DNA of 64,000 bases from NCBI GenBank assembly GCA_005883615.1, contig VBEC01000018.1, positions 167,473-231,472 of the forward strand, read 5' to 3'. The notes under the pieces were generated by a model that searched no databases, was not told the origin of the DNA, and saw only the letters and a program-made list of their open reading frames with translations. Positions 39,410 through 50,298 of this stretch are shown here, one piece after another. Numbering within the stretch: position 1 is the first letter of the stretch; the number at the start of each line of letters is the position of its first letter. This DNA comes from Chloroflexota bacterium. GTDB taxonomy: Bacteria > Chloroflexota > Limnocylindria > Limnocylindrales > CSP1-4. The position numbers and the translations under genes are program-made.

Positions 39410-39711
39410 TCTGAACAGAAGGCTGTGAACGGGACGAGTACCCGTCGCGTGTCGGCAGAGAGACCCGGTGGCTGGTGGAAACCGGGGCGGCAGTGACGGC
39501 GAATGGACCCGGGAGCCTCCGGACCGAACCCGCGGCCACCAGGCCACGCAAGTAGGCTCCGGCGCAGAGCGCCAGCGATAGAGGGCAGCGCCGATCGGCG
39601 GCATCGGGTAACCGGGCCGGCCCGTCGGTCAGGCAAGTGCGGCAACGCCGAATGAGGGTGGCACCGCGGAAGGCTCGACCTTTCGTCCCGGGACGAGAGG
39701 TCATTTTGTTT
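39410..39711 (+). promoter_or_regulatory. T-box riboswitch (tRNA-Trp sensing) controlling trpEGD(CFB)A
   Basis: Stem I has the GGGACGAGTA motif near 39430 and the distal AGAGA...GGTGGCTGGTGGAAACCGG region (39458-39485). The specifier loop reads GAATGGACC with codon TGG at 39504-39506, which is tryptophan. The T-box sequence AGGGTGGCACCGCGG is at 39655-39669. Its TGGC would pair with the NCCA end of uncharged tRNA-Trp, where C complements the G discriminator usual for bacterial tRNA-Trp. The terminator at 39677-39711 is the expression platform. Uncharged tRNA-Trp should stabilise the antiterminator and switch the operon on. Confidence 0.93.
39677..39711 (+). terminator. T-box-controlled intrinsic terminator
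   Basis: GACCTTTCGTCC pairs with GGACGAGAGGTC (12 bp with one G-U) around a 2-nt CG (so a slightly shorter effective stem), followed by ATTTTGTTT. It begins 7 nt after the T-box sequence and is mutually exclusive with the antiterminator. Confidence 0.9.
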
Positions 39712-39755: not shown

Positions 39756-41420
39756 ATGACCAGCAGCGACCCGCTCAGTCTCACGGCGGCGAAGCGCCTG
39801 GCCGCGAATGCCGACACACTCCTCCTCAAGGCGACCCGACCGGCCGATCTCGAAACGCCGATCGGGGCCTTTCTGCGCATGGACGACGGCGGTCCGGCCT
39901 ACCTGCTGGAGTCCGTCGAGGGTGGCGAGCGACTGGGTCGGTACTCCTTCCTGGGTGTCGTGCCGCGTCGCCTGCTCGAGGTTCGGGGCGGCCGGGCGAC
40001 GGTCCAGACGCGCCCGGTGACAGTGAGCCAATACGACCCTTCGCTCCCGACCGAAACCTTCGATGCGGCCGATCCCCTGGCCGCGCTCCGTGCATTCATG
40101 CCTCGGCGCCGCGTCGAGCCGCGCGAGGGAATGCCACGATTCACGGGCGGTGCGGTTGGCGCGCTCGCGTACGACGCGGCCACGGCATTCGAGCCCAGCG
40201 TCCCCGTCCTCGATCGCGACCCCGTCAACGTGCCCACGGCGGCATTCATCGAGACGGACCTGGTCCTCGTCTTCGACCATCTCTCGCACGACCTCTCGGC
40301 GGTCGCATCGCTGCACACGGCCGCGCCCGATCTCGAGGGCCGCTACCGCATCGCCGAGCGCGCGATCTTCGAGGCGCTCGAGCGCACCGGGCGCCCCAGT
40401 CCGGCCGAGCAGGCCAACGGTTCGAGCGCTGCGGTGGCGGACTCGCAACCGCCGATTGCGGAGGGGATCGACACGAGCCTCGGGCGTGATCAGTACATCC
40501 GTGCGGTGGAGATCGCCAAGGACGCAATCGCCGCCGGCGAGGCGATCCAGGTCGTTCTCGCGCGCCGGCAGTCGATCGACCTCCCGCGGCTCGCCGACGA
40601 TCGGCGACTCGACGGCATCGGTCTCTACCGCGCCCTGCGGCGGGTGAATCCGAGCCCGTATCTCTTCTTCGTTCGGACGCCGTCGTTCGAGGTCGTCGGC
40701 GCGTCGCCCGAGCTTCTCCTCCGGGTCGAGGGGGATCGCCTGACCACGCACCCCATTGCCGGGACGCGTCCGCGCGGTGCGACGCCGGCCGAGGACGCGA
40801 TCCTCGCCGAGCAGCTCCAGCGCGACCCGAAGGAGCGCGCGGAGCACGTCATGCTCGTCGACCTCGGGCGCAACGACCTGGGGCGTGTCGCCCGGCCGGG
40901 AACCGTGGCGGTTACGAAATACATGGAGGTCGAACGCTACAGCCACGTCCTGCACCTGGTCTCGCACGTCGAAGGCCGGCTGAAGCCCGACCTCGACGCG
41001 CTCGACGCGCTGCGGGCGGTCTTCCCTGCGGGCACCCTCTCGGGGGCGCCGAAGGTGCGCGCGATGCAGCTCATTGCGGCCGCGGAAGGAGAGCGCCGCG
41101 GGCTGTACGGCGGCGCCGTTGGCTACCTCGGCTATGACGGCAACCTGGATACCGCGATCACGATCCGGTCCGCCGTGCTGCGCGAGGGGATGGCACACAT
41201 TCACAGCGGAGCGGGCATCGTCGCCGGCTCGGTTCCCGAACGAGAGTTCGAGGAGACCGAGCACAAGGCTGCGGCACTGCGACGAGCGATCGAGCTGGCC
41301 GCAGGGCTGGAGTCGACCTCCGATCGCGCCGCTCCCCAGGCCGGCGGCGCACGCGGACTCGACGGCGAAGAGGACGGGACGTCGGCTCCGGCACCCGCCG
41401 GAATGAGAGGCCGGCCATGA
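39756..41420 (+). CDS. trpE: anthranilate synthase component I
   Basis: 554 residues, somewhat long. It converts chorismate and ammonia (from TrpG) to anthranilate. The allosteric tryptophan pocket motif LLESVEGGERLGRYSF is at about 49-64. The chorismate-binding domain has RRVNPSPYLFF, PELLLRVEGDRLTTHPIAGTRPRGAT, VDLGRNDLGRVA, FPAGTLSGAPKVRAM and HSGAGIVAGSVPEREFEE. The C-terminal 40 residues are a Gly/Ala-rich tail. ATG 39756 has GGAGG about 9 nt upstream. It overlaps trpG by 4 nt. First gene under the T-box. Confidence 0.97.
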   Translation: MTSSDPLSLTAAKRLAANADTLLLKATRPADLETPIGAFLRMDDGGPAYLLESVEGGERLGRYSFLGVVPRRLLEVRGGRATVQTRPVTVSQYDPSLPTETFDAADPLAALRAFMPRRRVEPREGMPRFTGGAVGALAYDAATAFEPSVPVLDRDPVNVPTAAFIETDLVLVFDHLSHDLSAVASLHTAAPDLEGRYRIAERAIFEALERTGRPSPAEQANGSSAAVADSQPPIAEGIDTSLGRDQYIRAVEIAKDAIAAGEAIQVVLARRQSIDLPRLADDRRLDGIGLYRALRRVNPSPYLFFVRTPSFEVVGASPELLLRVEGDRLTTHPIAGTRPRGATPAEDAILAEQLQRDPKERAEHVMLVDLGRNDLGRVARPGTVAVTKYMEVERYSHVLHLVSHVEGRLKPDLDALDALRAVFPAGTLSGAPKVRAMQLIAAAEGERRGLYGGAVGYLGYDGNLDTAITIRSAVLREGMAHIHSGAGIVAGSVPEREFEETEHKAAALRRAIELAAGLESTSDRAAPQAGGARGLDGEEDGTSAPAPAGMRGRP

Positions 41421-42163
41421 TCCTCGTGGTCGACAACTACGACTCGTTCACCTTCAACCTCGTGCAGGCGCTGGAGGCAGCGGGTGCGTCGGTCGTGGTG
41501 TACCGCAACGACGCGATCGACCGGAACGGCCTCGAACGGTTGGCCGACGACCCGGCCGCGGACCTGCGCGGCATCGTCATCTCGCCGGGTCCGGGCTCGC
41601 CGGCGACGGCCGGGGTATCCGTGGCTGCGATTCGGGTCGCCGCGCAGCGCGGTCTCCCGTTGCTCGGCGTGTGCCTGGGAATGCAGTCCATGGCTGAGGC
41701 GTTCGGCGGATCGATCGTCCGCGCACCGACCCTGGTGCATGGAGAAGCCTCCGTGGTCGAGGGCGACGGCGCGGGGCTGCTTGCAGGATTGCCCGCGTCA
41801 TTCCCGGGCGCTCGATACCACTCACTGTGCGTGGACCCGGCGACGCTCCCGTCCGAGCTACGCATCACCGCGACGAGCCCGGAGGACGGCGTGATCATGG
41901 GTCTGCGCCACGAGTCGCTGCCGATCGAGGGCGTCCAGTTCCACCCCGAATCGGTCCTCACGCCCGAGGGTCCGCGGCTGCTCGCGAACTTCCTGCGCCT
42001 GGCGGGAGAAGGAGAGGCCAGTCGCCTGGATGCGGTCAGCGGCTCGTTCGCCACCCAGGGCATGGCCGAGCGCCCGGTCAACGCTCGCGAGGCGGACGAA
42101 TCGGCGCCGGAGGTCCAGGCCGGCACGGCGACGCGTCCGGCGGTCGCCGGGGGCCGGTCATGA
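41417..42163 (+). CDS. trpG: anthranilate synthase component II (glutamine amidotransferase)
   Basis: 248 residues. Class I amidotransferase triad: Cys86 in LLGVCLGMQSMAEAFGG, plus His and Glu in GVQFHPESVLTPEG near 173-185. MILVVDNYDSFTFNLVQ is the standard N-terminus. It supplies ammonia to TrpE. About 50 extra residues after the catalytic domain (LAGEGEASRLDAVSGSFATQGMAERPVNA...) are polar and unlike typical TrpG, perhaps a linker or tail. ATGA overlaps at both ends. Confidence 0.96.
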   Translation: MILVVDNYDSFTFNLVQALEAAGASVVVYRNDAIDRNGLERLADDPAADLRGIVISPGPGSPATAGVSVAAIRVAAQRGLPLLGVCLGMQSMAEAFGGSIVRAPTLVHGEASVVEGDGAGLLAGLPASFPGARYHSLCVDPATLPSELRITATSPEDGVIMGLRHESLPIEGVQFHPESVLTPEGPRLLANFLRLAGEGEASRLDAVSGSFATQGMAERPVNAREADESAPEVQAGTATRPAVAGGRS

Positions 42164-43212
42164 GCGAGGTCGTCCGAGCCGCGCTGTCGGCCGTCGTCGA
42201 GGGCCAGAGCCTGACACTGGACCAGGCGCGCGACGCGATGGGCGCCGTGATGGACGGCGAGGCGACCCCCGCCCAGCTCGCGGCGCTGCTGGTGTCCCTG
42301 CGCATGCGAGGCGAGACAATCGAAGAGCTGGCCGGTTTCGCGACCGCGATGCGCGACCGCGTGGTTCGAGTGGAGGCGCCCCCCGGGACGATCGACACGT
42401 GCGGTACGGGCGGCGACGGCAGCGGCACGTTTAACATCTCGACCGCAGCCGCGCTCGTGGCGGCGGCCGCCGGGGTCCCTGTTGCCAAGCACGGCAACCG
42501 CGCCGTCACGTCCAACTCGGGCTCGGCAGACGTCCTCGAGGCTCTCGGCGTGCGCATCGACCACGACGCACAATCAGCCGGTGAAGCGCTCCGGCGAGAC
42601 GGCTTCGCCTTCCTATTCGCCCTGAACTTTCACCCTGCGATGAAGCACGCCGGCCCAACGCGGCGCGAGATCGGGGTCCGCACCGCATTTAACCTGCTCG
42701 GGCCGCTCACGAACCCGGCCGGCGCCATGCGCCAGGTCGTCGGCGTGGCCGATCCGCTCGCCGCCCCGCGGGTCGCGGCGGTGCTCCGGCTGCTGGGCAC
42801 AGATCGTGCGCTCGTCGTGCACGGGGAGGGGGTGGACGAGCTGCCGCTCGACGGCAGCGGGGTCCTGTACGACGTCTCGCCGTCCGGCGTCGCGCGTCGG
42901 GAGGTGGTCGCGTCGGATCTGGGGCTGGCGGCGGCCTCGACGCACCGATTGCAGGGCGGCTCCCCGGATGAGAACGCCCGCTTGATCGAGGCGGTGTTGC
43001 GAGGCGAGGGAGGACCCGGGCGGGACGTGGTCACTCTCAATGCGGCTGCCGCACTGCTTGCAGCAGGTCGAGTGAACGCGCTCGAGGCGGGACTCGGTCT
43101 CGCGTCAGCCGCGATCGACGACGGTGCGGCAGCGGCGCTCCTGGATCGGCTCCGGGAAGCGAAATCCGCGCACGAGGCGGGCACGCTGGCTGCGGAAGGC
43201 GCGCCGGCGTGA
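42160..43212 (+). CDS. trpD: anthranilate phosphoribosyltransferase
   Basis: 350 residues from ATG 42160, which overlaps the trpG stop as ATGA; the frame continues open upstream inside trpG and that part is not used. PRPP-binding motif DTCGTGGDGSGTFNIST near 78-95. KHGNRAVTSNSGSADVLEALG and FNLLGPLTNPAGA are canonical. It attaches phosphoribose to anthranilate. GTGA overlap with the fused trpCFB gene. Confidence 0.96.
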   Translation: MSEVVRAALSAVVEGQSLTLDQARDAMGAVMDGEATPAQLAALLVSLRMRGETIEELAGFATAMRDRVVRVEAPPGTIDTCGTGGDGSGTFNISTAAALVAAAAGVPVAKHGNRAVTSNSGSADVLEALGVRIDHDAQSAGEALRRDGFAFLFALNFHPAMKHAGPTRREIGVRTAFNLLGPLTNPAGAMRQVVGVADPLAAPRVAAVLRLLGTDRALVVHGEGVDELPLDGSGVLYDVSPSGVARREVVASDLGLAAASTHRLQGGSPDENARLIEAVLRGEGGPGRDVVTLNAAAALLAAGRVNALEAGLGLASAAIDDGAAAALLDRLREAKSAHEAGTLAAEGAPA

Positions 43213-46154
43213 CGATCGCGGAGGCACCTCGCGGGGGAGGCCGGCGGGCAGGATCCCCAAGCCGTGGCCGGAGCGCGCGACGCGCAGGTCGAGGGGGCGT
43301 GGTCGACGAGATCGCCGCCCGACGGGCTGCGGACGTCTCCGCAGAGATCGCCGGCCGCACGTTCGCTTCGCTGGCCCGGGCCGCAGACAGAGCATTGCCG
43401 CCACGGGACATCGCCGGGCTGCTCGCCCGCCCGGGGCTCCATCTCATCGCCGAGGTCAAGCGCGCGTCGCCTTCAGCGGGTCGAATCGTCGAGGCGGACG
43501 AGGATGTCGTGGCGCGCGCCCGCGCCTACCAGGCCGGCGGGGCGAGCGCGATCTCGGTGCTGTGCGAGCCGCACTGGTTTGCGGGGTCGGTCGACGACGT
43601 CCGCGCCGTGCGTTCGGCCGTGAGCATCCCGGTTCTCGCCAAGGAGTTCGTGGTCGATGCTCGTCAGCTGCCGCTGCTGCGCTCGGCCGGGGCCGATGTC
43701 GTCCTGCTGCTGGCGGTCCTCCATCCGGCGCGTCGCCTTGCCCGGCTGGTCGACCTTGCCCGGGACGTCGGCCTCGAACCTCTGGTCGAAGCACACGACG
43801 AACGAGAGCTCGAGCGCGCGCTCGCCAGCGGCGCGAGGCTGATCGGGATCAACAACCGCGACCTCCGGAGCCTCGAGGTCGACCCCGAGCGCTGCGTTCG
43901 ACTGCGCTCTCAGGTTCCAGACGACTGCCTGGCCATCGCCGAGTCGGGCGTTCGCGAGGCCGACCTCCTGCGCACCTGGCGCGCGGTCGGGTTCGATGCG
44001 GCCCTGGTTGGCGAGACCCTCGTCCGGGCCCCGGATCCTGCCGCAGCCGCGCGTGCTTTCGTGGGTGCAGGCGCGCCGCCGGCGGACATCGCCGCCGAAG
44101 CGCGAGCTCCAGTGGTCAAGATCTGCGGGGTGGCGGATCGCGAGGGGGTCGTCGCGGCTGTTCGCGCGCGGGTCGACGCCATCGGGCTCAACCTGGTGCC
44201 GGGCACACCACGCGCGCTGCGGCTCGATGAGGCCGCCGAGCTGGCGAAGCTGGCCCGTGCGGTCTCCGCGCCGGGGCAGGGCCTCAGGGTTGTTGCAGTC
44301 ACCGTGGACGAAACCGCCCCGGCGCTTGCTCGGATCGTCGAGGCCATCGACCCGGATGTCGTGCAGCTCTCGGGGGACGAGCAGCCGGCCCTCCTCGAGG
44401 ACATCACACGACCCGTCTGGAAGGTTCTCCATCTGCGGCCGACGGAAGCTGAGCTCGACTCGGTGGAACGGATTCGCGACCGTGCCATCGGCGTCGTCGC
44501 TGCAGCTCGGCGCTTCCTCGAGGCAGCCAACTGCGAGCGGATCATGCTCGACACGGCCGGCGGCCTGCATCCGGGCGGAACCGGGACGCCGGTTGACCGA
44601 TCGCTTGCAGCGGCCGTGGCGAGGGAGGTTCCGGTTGTCCTTGCCGGGGGGTTGAACGCCGCGAACGTCGGTGCCAGCCTGCTGGCTATCCCGGCGATCG
44701 GCGTTGACGTGGCTTCCGGAGTCGAGCGGCCACGAATCGCCGGCCAGCGACCGACGAAGGATCCTCTCCAGGTCGCACTCTTCGCCAAGCGCGCTCGAGG
44801 CGCGCGGTTCGACCGTCCGCTGACAGCAGCGCGGCCGACGCCGATCCACCCGGGGCTCCTCGAGGCGGACGAGCATGGGAGATGGGGCGCCGATCGGGCC
44901 TTTGGTGGCCGTTACGTGCCAGAAACCTTGATGGCCGCTCTGCAGCAGCTGGAATCGGAGTACCTGCAGATCCGGCAGGACCCAGGCTTCTGGGCCGAGC
45001 TGCGGCAACTACTGACCACCTACGCGGGCCGCCCGACCCCGCTCTATCGCGGCGATCGTCTGGCCGTCGCCGTCCTCGCCTCCGCACGCAAGGTTGCGGG
45101 CAGCCGAAACGGCACGGAGGGTGGACGGAACCATGCGGACGGCACCCTGCCGGGCAGCCTTCGGCTGTATCTCAAGCGGGAGGACCTCGCCCACACGGGG
45201 GCACACAAGATCAACAACGCGCTAGGCCAGGCGCTCCTGACGCGGCGCCTTGGCAAGACCCGCGTGATCGCCGAGACCGGCGCAGGCCAGCACGGCGTGG
45301 CGACCGCGACGGCGTGCGCGTTGCTGGGGCTGCCCTGCGTCGTTTACATGGGCGCCGAGGACATCGAGCGGCAGAAGCCCAACGTGCTACGCATGTACGC
45401 GCTCGGCGCCGAGGTCCGGCCAGTGACATCCGGCTCGGCCACCCTGAAGGACGCCATCAACGAGGCGATGCGCGACTGGGTGACGAACGTCGAGACCACG
45501 CACTACGTCCTGGGATCGGCAATGGGACCGCACCCGTATCCGATCCTCGTCCGCGATCTGCAGCGGGTCATCGGCGATGAGGCGGCCACTCAATTGCTGG
45601 CGGCCGAAGGCCGGCTGCCGGATCTGGCCCTGGCGTGCGTCGGCGGAGGCTCCAACGCCATCGGACTCCTGTCGCGCTTCATCGGTGAGCCCGCCGTTCG
45701 CCTCGCGGTGGCAGAGGCAGCGGGCGAGGGGATTGCGACCGGCCGGCACGCGGCCGCCGTGGCGGGAGGTTCGCCCGGGATCCTGCACGGGGCTCGCTCG
45801 CTGATGCTCCAGGATCGAGATCGGCAGGTCGTCGAGGCCCATTCGATCTCTGCCGGGCTCGACTACCCGGGCGTCGGTCCGCAGATCGCCGCACTGGCAA
45901 CCGCCGGCCGCGTCGAGCTGGCGGCGGCGACAGATGTCGAAGCCATCGAGGCCCTGCGGGGGGTGGCAGCGGCGGAGGGCATCCTGCCTGCGCTCGAGAC
46001 GGCACACGCCTTCGCCGTCCTGCCCCGGCTGCTGGCCGGCCTGGAGGGGCGCGGCGGGCCGTGGCCGGCAGAGACCGTCGTCCTCCTTGGCCTGTCGGGT
46101 CGAGGAGACAAGGATCTCGGGGCCATCGAACGGCCCGAGGCCGGGCGTCCGTGA
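43209..46154 (+). CDS. trpCFB: trifunctional TrpC-TrpF-TrpB fusion: IGP synthase / PRA isomerase / tryptophan synthase beta
   Basis: One uninterrupted 981-codon frame from GTG 43209. Residues 1-30 are Arg/Gly-rich. TrpC is at about 31-285, with HLIAEVKRASPSAG (78-91), LAKEFVVD (143-150), INNRDL and IAESGV. TrpF is at about 300-530, with VKICGVADREGV (catalytic Cys306), VQLSGDEQ and MLDTAGG (Asp448). TrpB is at about 540-975, with GGRYVPETL, the PLP lysine Lys667 in HTGAHKINN, AETGAGQHGVA and VGGGSNAIG. TrpB has an insertion of about 20 residues (near 624-648) after PLYRGDRL. All three active sites look intact. The TrpB unit would pair with TrpA encoded 4 nt into its stop. TrpCF fusions are well known; TrpB appended to them is unusual. 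Confidence 0.95.
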   Translation: MTIAEAPRGGGRRAGSPSRGRSARRAGRGGVVDEIAARRAADVSAEIAGRTFASLARAADRALPPRDIAGLLARPGLHLIAEVKRASPSAGRIVEADEDVVARARAYQAGGASAISVLCEPHWFAGSVDDVRAVRSAVSIPVLAKEFVVDARQLPLLRSAGADVVLLLAVLHPARRLARLVDLARDVGLEPLVEAHDERELERALASGARLIGINNRDLRSLEVDPERCVRLRSQVPDDCLAIAESGVREADLLRTWRAVGFDAALVGETLVRAPDPAAAARAFVGAGAPPADIAAEARAPVVKICGVADREGVVAAVRARVDAIGLNLVPGTPRALRLDEAAELAKLARAVSAPGQGLRVVAVTVDETAPALARIVEAIDPDVVQLSGDEQPALLEDITRPVWKVLHLRPTEAELDSVERIRDRAIGVVAAARRFLEAANCERIMLDTAGGLHPGGTGTPVDRSLAAAVAREVPVVLAGGLNAANVGASLLAIPAIGVDVASGVERPRIAGQRPTKDPLQVALFAKRARGARFDRPLTAARPTPIHPGLLEADEHGRWGADRAFGGRYVPETLMAALQQLESEYLQIRQDPGFWAELRQLLTTYAGRPTPLYRGDRLAVAVLASARKVAGSRNGTEGGRNHADGTLPGSLRLYLKREDLAHTGAHKINNALGQALLTRRLGKTRVIAETGAGQHGVATATACALLGLPCVVYMGAEDIERQKPNVLRMYALGAEVRPVTSGSATLKDAINEAMRDWVTNVETTHYVLGSAMGPHPYPILVRDLQRVIGDEAATQLLAAEGRLPDLALACVGGGSNAIGLLSRFIGEPAVRLAVAEAAGEGIATGRHAAAVAGGSPGILHGARSLMLQDRDRQVVEAHSISAGLDYPGVGPQIAALATAGRVELAAATDVEAIEALRGVAAAEGILPALETAHAFAVLPRLLAGLEGRGGPWPAETVVLLGLSGRGDKDLGAIERPEAGRP

Positions 46155-47038
46155 ACGCCGTGGTGACACTGGCCGACGCCCGATCGAATGGTTCCCATCC
46201 GGCGCCGCCGCTCGAGGGTACGCGCGCCACAGCCGGGGCCCGGCGGATCGAGACGGTTTTCCGTCGCGCTGGTGAAGCGGGCCGCGCGGCTCTCATCCCG
46301 TATGTCGTCGCGGGCTATCCGGATCTCGAGGCCAGCCTGGACGTGGCCCTGGCCGCGATCGATGCGGGGGCCGACGTCCTCGAGGTCGGGCTGCCGTATT
46401 CCGATCCTCTCGCCGACGGCGCCACCCTGCAGCGCGCGTCATCTGCCGCGCTGGGCGCGGGGGCGACCTTCGATCGTTCGGTAGCCCTCCTCGAGCGGAT
46501 CGCCGGGGCGCGCGCGGCCGTCCCGCTCGTGCCGATGGCCTACGCCAACCAGATCATCGGCGGTGGCGATGGGCGTGACGCCGCTCGTCGCCTCGCGTCG
46601 GCCGGTGCGGCCGGCGTGATCGTGGCCGACCTGACGCCCGACGAAGGCGCGCCCTTCGAGGCTGCCGCCCGCGACGCTGGCCTGGCTGTGGTCTACCTTG
46701 TCGCCCCGACGACCCCTCGCGACCGGCGTCGTTTCATCGCCGGGCGGACCGGCGGATTCCTTTATTGCGTGTCGCTCGTCGGCGTGACCGGTGCGCGCCG
46801 GTCACTTCCGCGGGCGGTCGGCCGGCTGGTCCGTGAGGTCCGTGCGATTTCGCCTGTGCCGGTCGCCGTCGGCTTCGGTGTCAGCCGCCCACAGCACGTT
46901 CGCGCGCTCGCGCGCGCGGGCGCCGACGGCGTCATCGTGGCCTCCGCCCTGGTGGATGCCCTGGGCCTGGACGGCCGGAATGTCGCGGCTCTTGGGACGT
47001 TGGTCGCGCAGATGCGGAGCGCGACTCAGCGCCCGTAG
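46151..47038 (+). CDS. trpA: tryptophan synthase alpha subunit
   Basis: 295 residues from GTG 46151 (GTGA overlap with trpCFB). Catalytic Glu in DVLEVGLPYSDPLADGATLQ and Asp in DPLADG are present. The loop-6 region PTTPRDRRRFIAGRTGGFLYCVSLVGVTGAR and the phosphate site VGFGVSRPQHV are conserved. It cleaves indole-3-glycerol phosphate to indole for the TrpB domain. The N-terminal 30 residues are a polar extension. It overlaps the convergent rhomboid gene by 13 bp, tail to tail, with no terminator between them. Confidence 0.95.
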   Translation: MNAVVTLADARSNGSHPAPPLEGTRATAGARRIETVFRRAGEAGRAALIPYVVAGYPDLEASLDVALAAIDAGADVLEVGLPYSDPLADGATLQRASSAALGAGATFDRSVALLERIAGARAAVPLVPMAYANQIIGGGDGRDAARRLASAGAAGVIVADLTPDEGAPFEAAARDAGLAVVYLVAPTTPRDRRRFIAGRTGGFLYCVSLVGVTGARRSLPRAVGRLVREVRAISPVPVAVGFGVSRPQHVRALARAGADGVIVASALVDALGLDGRNVAALGTLVAQMRSATQRP

Positions 47039-47781
47039 CCGAATCGCTGCGTGCGCGCTGGTGGCTGGCTCCGGAAGATCAAGCCGACCACCAGACCGGC
47101 GATGAACCCGCCGACGTGCGCCAGGTAGGCCACGCCGCCCGTCTGCTCGGTGAGTGCGATCTGGCCAACCCCGTTCACAAGGTTGAGGAGGAACCACAGC
47201 CCGATTGCGACGAGGGCCGGTACGGCGAACGGGATGAACCGGAAGACCAGGATCCAGACGCGGTTGGTGGGGAACAGCGCGAGGTAGGCGCCAAGCACCC
47301 CCGCGATGGCGCCTGACGCTCCGAGGCTCGGGATGAACGAATCCGGGTTTGGAAGGATCTGCGCGATTCCCGCCACGACCCCGGCGCCCAGATAGAGCAC
47401 CACGTACATCGGGCTCCCCAACCGGCGCTCCACGTTGTCCCCGAAGATCCACAGGAACCACATGTTGCCGAGGATGTGCAGCCAGCCACCGTGCAGAAAC
47501 ATGCTGGTGAAAATCGTCAGCCAGATCGGCCTCGGGCCGGGCTCCTCGTCGATTAGCCCCCTCTCGCCGCCGACGGTGATCTCCTTGGGTCCGACGAGAT
47601 CGACGTTGTGGGTGATCTCGTAGGGGATCGTGCTGTAACCGTAGGTGATCGGTTGGCGCTCCTTGCCCGATTCGGGGAGCTGGAGCAAGAGGAACACGGC
47701 GAAGTTCGCGAGGATGATCAGGAGCGTCACGGGGGCCCGTCGTCCGCCGGGCTCGTTCTGGTCGCCGATCGGGAAAATCAT
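47026..47781 (-). CDS. rhomboid-family intramembrane serine protease
   Basis: 251 residues from ATG 47781 (MIFPIGDQNEPGG); an upstream in-frame ATG at 47817 would add 12. About six membrane helices. Catalytic Ser156 in LGASGAIAGVLGAY and His222 in YLAHVGGFIAG, with HILGNMWFLWIFGDNVE supplying the oxyanion-hole Asn/His. A long loop between helices 1 and 2 (about 37-85) faces outside. It cleaves substrates within the membrane; substrate unknown. It lies 96 nt beyond the chorismate mutase gene and may be the last gene of the aro transcript. Confidence 0.9.
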   Translation of the reverse strand: MIFPIGDQNEPGGRRAPVTLLIILANFAVFLLLQLPESGKERQPITYGYSTIPYEITHNVDLVGPKEITVGGERGLIDEEPGPRPIWLTIFTSMFLHGGWLHILGNMWFLWIFGDNVERRLGSPMYVVLYLGAGVVAGIAQILPNPDSFIPSLGASGAIAGVLGAYLALFPTNRVWILVFRFIPFAVPALVAIGLWFLLNLVNGVGQIALTEQTGGVAYLAHVGGFIAGLVVGLIFRSQPPARTQRFGYGR

Positions 47782-47877
47782 CGAATCCTCCAGCCCGCGG
47801 CCGCTCGAAGCGCACATAGTCGCCCTTGAACGTGGGCGACCGCAATCCCCGGCTCCGGCAAATCTTGGGGATGCGTC

Positions 47878-48207
47878 TCAGGCGGGTGGATGCGCCCCTG
47901 CTGGTCCGTCGCGCTCACCGCGCTCGAGGGTTCGAGCCACGCTCATCAGCCGTCGATAGACCGCCAGCAGGTCGGCTTGCGGTGTGGGCCCGGTATTCGC
48001 CATCGAGACGCGCAGGAGCACCTCGCGTTCTCGATCGAGATCGCGGACGGCTTGCCGCCCAGCCGCACTCTTGGCCCGGCCGACCTCGAGAGCGAGCTCG
48101 GCTCGTTCGTTCAGGAGCTCGACGATCCGCCGGTCCAGGGCGTCGATCCGACGCCGAAGCCTGCGCAGCTCGGCAGTCTCTTGCCGGCCGGTCCCGTGCT
48201 CAGCCAC
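47878..48207 (-). CDS. chorismate mutase, AroQ class
   Basis: 109 residues from GTG 48207, which overlaps the dehydroquinase stop by 8 nt; an ATG at 48252 gives 124 residues. All-helical CM type II: LRRLRRRIDALDRRIVELLNERAELALEVGRAKSAAG carries the Arg/Lys active-site pattern (R.. D.. I..LL..R....V...K), and the later DREREVLLRV and LLAVYRRLMSVAR complete the fold. It converts chorismate to prephenate, diverting flux to Phe/Tyr. No prephenate dehydratase or dehydrogenase is in the window. Confidence 0.88.
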   Translation of the reverse strand: MAEHGTGRQETAELRRLRRRIDALDRRIVELLNERAELALEVGRAKSAAGRQAVRDLDREREVLLRVSMANTGPTPQADLLAVYRRLMSVARTLERGERDGPAGAHPPA

Positions 48208-48640
48208 GGCCGTCTTCCAGCCGTCCGGCGATGGATTGGAGCGCCAGGGCATAACCCGCGGGCCCTTTGCCGACGATCGACTCGATCGCGATGTCGCGCA
48301 GGAAGTTGACCTGCCGGAACGCCTCGCGTGTCGACGGATCGGACAAGTGGACCTCGATGAACGGCCGCGAGATCCCGAGCAAGGCGTCGCGCAGCGAAAC
48401 CGACGTGTGGGTGAGGCCGCCGGCGTTCACGATCGCAGCGTCGAAATCTCGGGCGTGGAGGCGATCGATCAAAGCGCCCTCGTGGTTCGACTGGAAGAAC
48501 GCGATCTGCAGGCCGAGGGTCTCCGCGAGGCTCGCCAGCTCCGCATGGACTTCGTCGAGCGTCTGGCGCCCATAGATCTCGGGCTCCCGTGAACCCAGCA
48601 GGTTCAGGTTTGGCCCCTCCAGGACGAGCACGGTCGTCAC
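48200..48640 (-). CDS. aroQ: 3-dehydroquinate dehydratase, type II
   Basis: 146 residues. VLVLEGPNLNLLGSREPEIYG with the catalytic Tyr23, FFQSNHEGALIDRLH near 49, INAGGLTHTSVSLRDAL-type loop near 72-86 (NAGG) and EVHLSDPSTREAFR are the hallmark motifs. It dehydrates dehydroquinate to dehydroshikimate as a dodecamer. GTG start overlaps the aroKB stop (GTGA). Confidence 0.96.
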   Translation of the reverse strand: MTTVLVLEGPNLNLLGSREPEIYGRQTLDEVHAELASLAETLGLQIAFFQSNHEGALIDRLHARDFDAAIVNAGGLTHTSVSLRDALLGISRPFIEVHLSDPSTREAFRQVNFLRDIAIESIVGKGPAGYALALQSIAGRLEDGRG

Positions 48641-50298
48641 GTTCGCGCCGGCGCCCCCGAACCGGCGAGAACGCCCCCAACGATCTCCTCGATGAGGTCT
48701 ACTGGAACGTCGTCCCGGACTTCGACGCCGGCCTCGTTCGGAAGGACCCAGCGCAGCCTGCCGTCCCCGGCGTGCTTCTTATCGGTGTCGAGCGCCGCAA
48801 GGATGGCATCGAGCGCCAGGTGGAGCGGATCGACCCCGAGGCCCAGCCGGGACAGGAGCGCCTCCACTCGGTCGGCCCGGGCGCCGGGCGTCGAGCCAAG
48901 CGCCGCCCCAAGGCGGCAGGCCGCGCGCAGGCCATAGGCGACGGCTTCTCCATGGCGAAGTCCCGAGTAACCCGCGGCGGCCTCCAGGCCATGGCCCACC
49001 GTGTGGCCCAGGTTCAGGCGGATTCGACCGGCGCCCGCGTCAGAGTCGGCCTCGCGCTCGTCGGCGGAGACGACCTCGATCTTCTTCCAGGCGCAGCGCT
49101 CGACCAGCTCGGCCACGGTGCCGTCCTCGAAAACAGCGTCTTCTCCGTGCACGATCGCATCCCCGTCCGACTCGAGCAGCTCGAACAGGCGCTCGTCGCC
49201 GAGGATGGCCATCTTCACCGCCTCCCCAAGCGCCGCGCGCCGCTCGCGCTCGGGGAGCGAACGCAGCACCGCTACGTCGATGACGATGGCGGCGGGCTGG
49301 TGGAATGCCCCAATCAGGTTCTTGCCCTCGGGCAGGTCGACACCCGTCTTGCCTCCGATCGAGGAGTCGATCTGGGCGACGAGCGTGGTGGGGAGGTGGA
49401 TCAGGGGAACACCACGCAGCCATACCGCGGCGAGGAAGCCGGCCGCATCGCCGAGCGCCCCTCCGCCAACGGCGACGAGCGGCTCGTCACGGGCGACGCG
49501 CAGGTCGGCCAGCGTTCGCGCCGTCTCCTCGATCACCGCCATGCGCTTGGCCGCCTCGCCCTGAGGCAGCTCGACGATCTCCAGCGGGATCGCCCGCGCG
49601 GCCAGGCTCTCCCGGATCTCCCCGCCGACCGCGTTCCAGGCTCCGGGCTCGGTGATGACGACGGCGCGACGCGCCTCCAGCCGCATGAGCTCCTCGACGA
49701 GGGCCGTCCCGAGGATCCCCTCGCCGATCGTCACCCGCCCGAGACGGGAATCCGACCGGAGCAGGAGCGTGCCTCGACGCGATGGCGCCTCGGCGACGAG
49801 GTTGTCGACCGTCTCGAGGACGGACGGCAATTGGACGATCGCATTCACGCGCTCGGCGCCCGCGTAGAACGGCCGCCGGCCGTCGGCAAGCCCGCGCATC
49901 GCCGAGATGGGGTCGCGGCCAACCACCAGCGGGCGGATCGTCGGGCTGCGCCGCAGGCGCTGCGCGAGGACCTCCGGTCGTGCGTCCAGCCAGATCGGCA
50001 GGCGGCGCCGGTACAGCCGCCAGCGGTTGCGCGGATCGAGCACCGCACCACCGCCCGTGGCCACCACGCGGCGAACAGCCGGGTCGCGGTCGGCGGGACC
50101 GAGGTCGGCCACGGCGGCCCGCTCCAGGCTCCGGAAGCCTGCCTCCCCCTGCGACGCGAAGATGTCGGGGATCGACTGGCCGGCATGGCGTTCGACGACC
50201 TCGTCCAGGTCGATGAACTCCGCGCCGTGATGATGGGCAAGGCGCCGGCCGACGGCGGTCTTTCCGCTGCCGGGGAGGCCGACGAGGATGACGTCCAT
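48637..50298 (-). CDS. aroKB: fused shikimate kinase / 3-dehydroquinate synthase
   Basis: 553 residues, a two-enzyme fusion. Residues 1-170 are shikimate kinase: Walker A GLPGSGKT (7-14), FIDLDEVVE, GEAGFRSLE and VVATGGGAVLD. Residues about 178-553 are dehydroquinate synthase: VAVGGGALGDAAGFLAAVWLRG (276-296), DSSIGGKTGVDLPEGKNLIG (311-330), GEAVKMA and the zinc-site region LNLGHTVGHGLE and LRHGEAVAYG. The enzymes act at steps 5 and 2, so the fusion is not between consecutive steps. ATG 50298, 23 nt after aroC. Confidence 0.96.
   Translation of the reverse strand: MDVILVGLPGSGKTAVGRRLAHHHGAEFIDLDEVVERHAGQSIPDIFASQGEAGFRSLERAAVADLGPADRDPAVRRVVATGGGAVLDPRNRWRLYRRRLPIWLDARPEVLAQRLRRSPTIRPLVVGRDPISAMRGLADGRRPFYAGAERVNAIVQLPSVLETVDNLVAEAPSRRGTLLLRSDSRLGRVTIGEGILGTALVEELMRLEARRAVVITEPGAWNAVGGEIRESLAARAIPLEIVELPQGEAAKRMAVIEETARTLADLRVARDEPLVAVGGGALGDAAGFLAAVWLRGVPLIHLPTTLVAQIDSSIGGKTGVDLPEGKNLIGAFHQPAAIVIDVAVLRSLPERERRAALGEAVKMAILGDERLFELLESDGDAIVHGEDAVFEDGTVAELVERCAWKKIEVVSADEREADSDAGAGRIRLNLGHTVGHGLEAAAGYSGLRHGEAVAYGLRAACRLGAALGSTPGARADRVEALLSRLGLGVDPLHLALDAILAALDTDKKHAGDGRLRWVLPNEAGVEVRDDVPVDLIEEIVGGVLAGSGAPART

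Follow-up and report, generated by a model that had tools for sequence, protein, structure and literature searches.

The enzymes of the late tryptophan pathway are known in several fused forms. In TrpCF of E. coli (PDB 1PII; PRK09427) the two barrels of indole-3-glycerol phosphate synthase (TrpC) and phosphoribosylanthranilate isomerase (TrpF) follow each other in this order on one chain. TrpF is joined to the N-terminus of the tryptophan synthase beta chain (TrpB) in proteins of the PRK13803 type, a fusion which is reportedly rare in bacteria and archaea (PMC11237513), and in the PRK13802 type TrpC forms the N-terminal and TrpB the C-terminal part of one chain. Several late pathway steps are likewise gathered on one polypeptide in Euglena, the tryptophan enzyme of which has five catalytic domains (PMC2395257; a larger fused enzyme is also treated in PMC6630311). 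The gene described here, trpCFB, encodes TrpC, TrpF and TrpB together. It lies in a stretch of 64,000 nucleotides, referred to as the window, of contig VBEC01000018.1 from a Chloroflexota bacterium (GCA_005883615.1), the genome of which is a draft assembly of 3.06 Mb in 112 contigs. This triple is an unusual extension of the known two-enzyme fusions, a new combination on the scale of a whole lineage rather than something categorically new.

The gene occupies positions 43209..46154 of the forward strand as one open frame of 981 codons, and its product of 981 amino acids is divided into a TrpC domain (residues 31-283, 43299..44057, +), a TrpF domain (residues 301-531, 44109..44801, +), a connector between TrpF and TrpB (residues 532-556, 44802..44876, +), and a TrpB domain (residues 557-981, 44877..46151, +) which contains a variable insert at residues 621-648. 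The Pfam models for IGPS (PF00218; residues 33-283, 234.5 bits, cut-off 27), PRAI (PF00697; residues 303-507, 75.7 bits, cut-off 22.7) and PALP (residues 652-949, 113.2 bits) all scored above their cut-offs. This domain search bore out a preliminary description of the locus, which had read the three enzymes from a single frame and had pointed to the KRASPS and KEF motifs of TrpC, C306 and D448 of TrpF and K667 of TrpB, all of which were found at the positions it had given. The TrpB part was assigned to TrpB1 and not to the stand-alone TrpB2 type, because it reached 533.2 bits with TIGR00263 (cut-off 392.45) and only 146.1 bits with TIGR01415. The closest PDB chains by sequence were TrpB beta chains, followed lower down by IGPS. 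As the genome yields a single PRAI match, the fusion is its only TrpF. A stand-alone TrpB2 is encoded outside the window in this genome (G000:C27:79764-80798, L281), with 735.3 bits to PRK12391 and 659.2 bits to TIGR01415.

The start of the frame was placed at the GTG which overlaps the stop of trpD (GTGA). In relatives a comparable (M/V)T(I/L)xE stretch at the N-terminus precedes GVVxEIAARR, which favours this start at 43209; it is weakened by the disorder of residues 1-28 in the AlphaFold model, and a second GTG at 43299 may be an alternative.

None of the models for two-enzyme fusions accommodates the protein. Enterobacterial TrpCF lacks TrpB, and its model PRK09427 gave 253.8 bits, below the cut-off of 380. 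PRK13803, in which TrpC is missing, gave 591.1 bits (cut-off 819), and PRK13802, in which no TrpF intervenes, gave 579.9 bits (cut-off 1386). The Euglena enzyme differs in being eukaryotic and larger, whereas in the window TrpA and TrpD are encoded by separate genes. No NCBIfam model exists for the TrpC-TrpF-TrpB triple, and no description of a fusion in this order was found in the literature searched, the coverage of which leaves out most subscription journals, home of the main reviews on trp fusions. A fusion already well described in the lineage, which the preliminary description had named as a refutation, was thus not encountered in that literature. The description did not mention the existing NCBIfam models for the TrpF-TrpB and TrpC-TrpB fusions. 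The architecture may, unremarked, already have an entry in a protein database.

The fusion is a real trait common to a family of uncultivated soil Chloroflexota, here called f1, which most probably corresponds to CSP1-4 in the class Limnocylindria. A PRAI match was present in 87 of 107 genomes of this family, and in 80 of these 87 the frame had at least 850 codons. In 55 genomes TrpC, TrpF and TrpB could be read from one frame. The exceptions inspected were contig ends or frame breaks (for instance G005 in L169 and G072 in L167/L168), and no member with intact but split trpC, trpF and trpB was found among them. Among the members with no PRAI match, five genomes of at least 90% completeness (G024, G027, G099, G080, G013) lacked TrpF, TrpC and TrpB1 together; the pathway has therefore been lost as a whole there. 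Family members which lost the trp operon keep a match to the TrpB model as strong as that of the stand-alone TrpB2 mentioned above; such an enzyme would suit salvage of indole. Some members of genus g2 carry a second, stand-alone TrpF-like frame besides the fusion (L170, 5829-6635; L171, 5727-6416). The assignment to CSP1-4 agrees with a second family of this order, whose genomes of about 1.1 Mb have neither TrpC nor TrpF and so fit the reduced-genome Limnocylindraceae described as the sister of CSP1-4 (PMC13212565).

Beyond the family, 400 Chloroflexota genomes were surveyed for PRAI frames among the matches listed, and 78 more genomes spread over the families were added. Among the matches listed for the 400 genomes, the triple occurred outside f1 only in genus g41 of the sister family f4 (in G170 and as contig-end fragments in G169); G014 contained a stray 3 kb contig with a copy of the fusion resembling that of f4. 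In the other Chloroflexota families the PRAI frames listed were too short or, where checked, had no TrpB, in keeping with the preliminary description, for which the arrangement was not a commonly known one. TrpC-TrpF fusions were found in 13 of 60 Chloroflexota loci checked (L176, L177, L178, L180, L186, L189, L198, L199, L203, L205, L257, L259, L261); they belong to several other families, and their frames mostly have about 480-570 codons. When the best 80 loci from 84,980 prokaryote genomes were considered, the triple was read from one frame only in seven relatives from the Chloroflexi (L002-L008). Many other loci of this set, including some from other phyla, had trpC, trpF and trpB as adjoining separate genes in C-F-B order, two had TrpF and TrpB in one frame (L017, L019) and one had TrpC and TrpF (L070).

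The fusions of f1 formed one clade with 100% bootstrap in the TrpB tree as well as in the TrpC tree. Most likely a single event that preceded the diversification of the family joined neighbouring genes in C-F-B order, an arrangement in which relatives in other phyla still keep the three as separate genes. The fusion of f4 may belong to this event or to another: a joint clade of f1 and f4 was not rejected on TrpC (p-AU 0.865) and had weak support on TrpB, and the TrpF-TrpB junctions of the two differ in length and sequence, that of f4 being much shorter. The f4 type (L161, L163, L166) is a diverged form of the fusion, and in its TrpF domain the catalytic aspartate is replaced by glutamate in all three sequences and GGTG is altered in two.

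Conservation was assessed in 46 f1 sequences from species-level genomes, residues being scored wherever a sequence reaches. E82, K84, K145, E194, N215, E245 and S246 of TrpC were invariant in all 46, the first six being the equivalents of the catalytic residues E51, K53, K110, E159, N180 and E210. Equally invariant were the catalytic C306 and D448 of TrpF, of which GGTG, the second GG and GVDVxSG were also kept in essentially all members. In TrpB the pyridoxal phosphate lysine K667 and E689, D885, E930 and S963 (equivalents of E109, D305, E350 and S377) did not vary where the sequence reaches, and the inter-subunit lysine K747, the equivalent of Salmonella beta-K167 and thus the counterpart of the residue that pairs with alpha-D56, was present in 46 of 46. 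TrpA retains the partner motif LEVGLPYSDPLADG as well as GVTG.

On these grounds the product of trpCFB is very probably a working three-function tryptophan enzyme, likely docking with the separate TrpA, and derived in f1 from a single fusion. The TrpF domain would isomerise phosphoribosylanthranilate (step 3), the TrpC domain would close the indole ring to yield indole-3-glycerol phosphate (step 4), and the TrpB1 domain would join indole with serine (step 5b). TrpA would bind to the TrpB dimer as it usually does, so that two CFB chains and two TrpA make up the complex. This composition is expected because TrpB1 works with TrpA, the interface residues are kept, and the N-terminus of TrpB tolerates fusions, as in PRK13802 and PRK13803; a fused TrpA-TrpB chain was also among the PDB matches of the product. 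The doubt raised in the preliminary description, how an alpha-beta complex could assemble on such a fusion, is answered as far as the TrpB1 type, the invariant K747 and the TrpA partner motif go. What was observed directly is the frame with its domains, the conservation of the catalytic residues, the retention across the lineage and the fixed length of the connector; the activity of each domain, the docking of TrpA and any gain from proximity are inferred. Some observations weigh against the proposal. PRAI is the most diverged of the domains and shares about 24-34% identity with TrpF proteins that stand alone. In 44 of 46 sequences its QLHG motif has serine, asparagine or alanine in place of the histidine, and the predicted model, being of a single chain, displays neither a TrpB dimer nor TrpA.

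The alternative which survives best, though doubtful, is that the fusion is a neutral accident, in which the stops between coupled adjacent genes were lost and the domains act as if apart on a floppy tether. Neighbouring trp genes overlap by 4 bases, so joining them needs little change, and the same gene order is found unfused in relatives. Against this stands the connector between TrpF and TrpB. The distance between K513, close to where TrpF ends, and F565, where TrpB starts, is 52 residues in all 46 sequences, and the mean pairwise identity of the connector (0.58) is on a par with that of TrpF (0.57; TrpC 0.68), unlike that of the loop insert in TrpB (0.34). Within it R533, P537, P543 and D554 are conserved. 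One would expect the length of a free tether to differ between sequences; the connector is under constraint. The link between TrpC and TrpF is less uniform, with 28 residues from D276 to K304 in 38 of the 46 sequences and 32-35 in the remainder. That the exceptions inspected in the family were contig ends or frame breaks, with no intact split genes, also speaks against a neutral accident.

It is very unlikely that TrpF survives in the fusion merely as a structural relic, the isomerase activity being supplied from elsewhere. The low PRAI score, the glutamate in place of the catalytic aspartate in the f4 fusions, and the trpE-G-D-C-B-A operons without trpF in f3 and f5, two sister families within this class (L158, L159, L160, L162, L164, L173, L174), could be taken to favour it, but an inactive TrpF in f1 is not supported, given the invariant catalytic residues and the motifs GGTG, second GG and GVDVxSG kept in essentially all 46 sequences. 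In f3 and f5 no recognisable TrpF was found in the genomes searched with PF00697 and a custom TrpF profile. Their HisA passes TIGR00007 and reached only 173.7-189.3 bits with TIGR01919, the model for the bifunctional enzyme, the cut-off of which is 306.45, so that PriA, a HisA with TrpF activity, finds no support here as the isomerase of these families. A dual-substrate HisA outside the Actinomycetota would be of interest.

Cleavage of the chain after translation, or an additional internal start of TrpB, would give separate subunits. Cleavage is compatible with the sequence, but both are highly improbable, since the length of the connector is conserved and residues 532-574 contain no methionine, the first being M575 inside the first helix of TrpB. 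Finally, an assembly error or frameshift which joins separate genes, conceivable in a draft of many contigs, is ruled out together with a chance reading, because 55 genomes that were assembled separately show the triple in one frame and because its connector is conserved; the frameshift or stop between the domains, named by the preliminary description as what would overturn the fusion, is thus practically excluded.

AlphaFold models were calculated for single chains and without a predicted-error map. Both were confident: the whole chain was predicted with a pLDDT of 86.3 and a pTM of 0.86 (32 rows), and the TrpC-TrpF part with 90.0 and 0.90 (8 rows); the last part of the connector was less confident (block means 62-75). 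In Foldseek searches the whole chain matched solved TrpB structures at TMt 0.91-0.95. The TrpC-TrpF part found the bifunctional TrpCF structures 1PII and 7ETY as top matches over the full length, at TM 0.44-0.50 and an rmsd of 15-16 A; superposition on 1PII gave 16.2 A over 515 columns covering both barrels. Single IGPS chains reached TMt values of up to 0.97 with an rmsd of 1.3 A. Because single fits are good and the joint fit is poor, each barrel appears normal, and the prediction gives the two barrels a relative placement unlike that in E. coli TrpCF (TM 0.44-0.50, in a model predicted from 8 sequences). A more ambitious proposal is that CFB and TrpA assemble into a single ordered particle carrying four activities, where the fixed connector would place TrpC such that indole-3-glycerol phosphate reaches TrpA directly. 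This is speculative and rather unlikely.

The gene is part of a compact operon on the forward strand in the order trpE-trpG-trpD-trpCFB-trpA. It starts with trpE for anthranilate synthase component I (39756..41420, 554 amino acids, Pfam Chorismate_bind 312.9 bits, top NCBIfam match trpE_most), which is overlapped by 4 bases by trpG for the glutamine amidotransferase (41417..42163, Pfam GATase 190.6 bits). The ATG of trpD (42160..43212, Pfam Glycos_transf_3 279.1 bits) overlaps the stop of trpG (ATGA), its start having been set from this overlap and from the start of the domain. The GTG of trpA (46151..47038) overlaps the stop of trpCFB; its product, an alpha subunit of 295 amino acids, scored 224.3 bits with TIGR00262 (cut-off 102.35), so that TrpA is indeed left separate as first described. 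About 60 bases upstream of trpE ends a T-box-like leader (39416..39693, +), which matched Rfam RF00230 end to end with 59.9 bits (E 3.3e-11), but below the gathering score of 93. The T-box motif is present, and a UGG specifier for tryptophan (39504-39506) and an antiterminator bulge UGGC (39659-39662), both on the forward strand, were read directly from the bases. The bulge would be complementary to a tRNA with G as its discriminator base, which is what bacterial tRNA-Trp is expected to carry. A shortage of charged tRNA-Trp is therefore the most likely inducer of the operon.

Downstream of the operon lies a gene for a rhomboid-family protease (47026-47817, -), followed by shikimate pathway genes convergent with the trp operon. 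These code for an AroK-AroB fusion of shikimate kinase with 3-dehydroquinate synthase (48637-50298, -; 218.2 bits against a cut-off of 565 for PRK14021, the known bifunctional model) and, adjoining it, a class II dehydroquinase (48200-48640) and a protein with a chorismate mutase domain (47878-48252).

With the triple, the series of pairwise fusions (C-F, F-B and C-B) is complete. TrpA and TrpB are the textbook example of substrate channelling, and it has long been asked whether enzymes that act earlier in the pathway take part. If the ordered particle were real, the classic indole tunnel would be extended upstream by one or two steps. As the link of TrpC and TrpF to TrpB is of constant length throughout the family, the question of channelling becomes testable with one natural gene and its TrpA.

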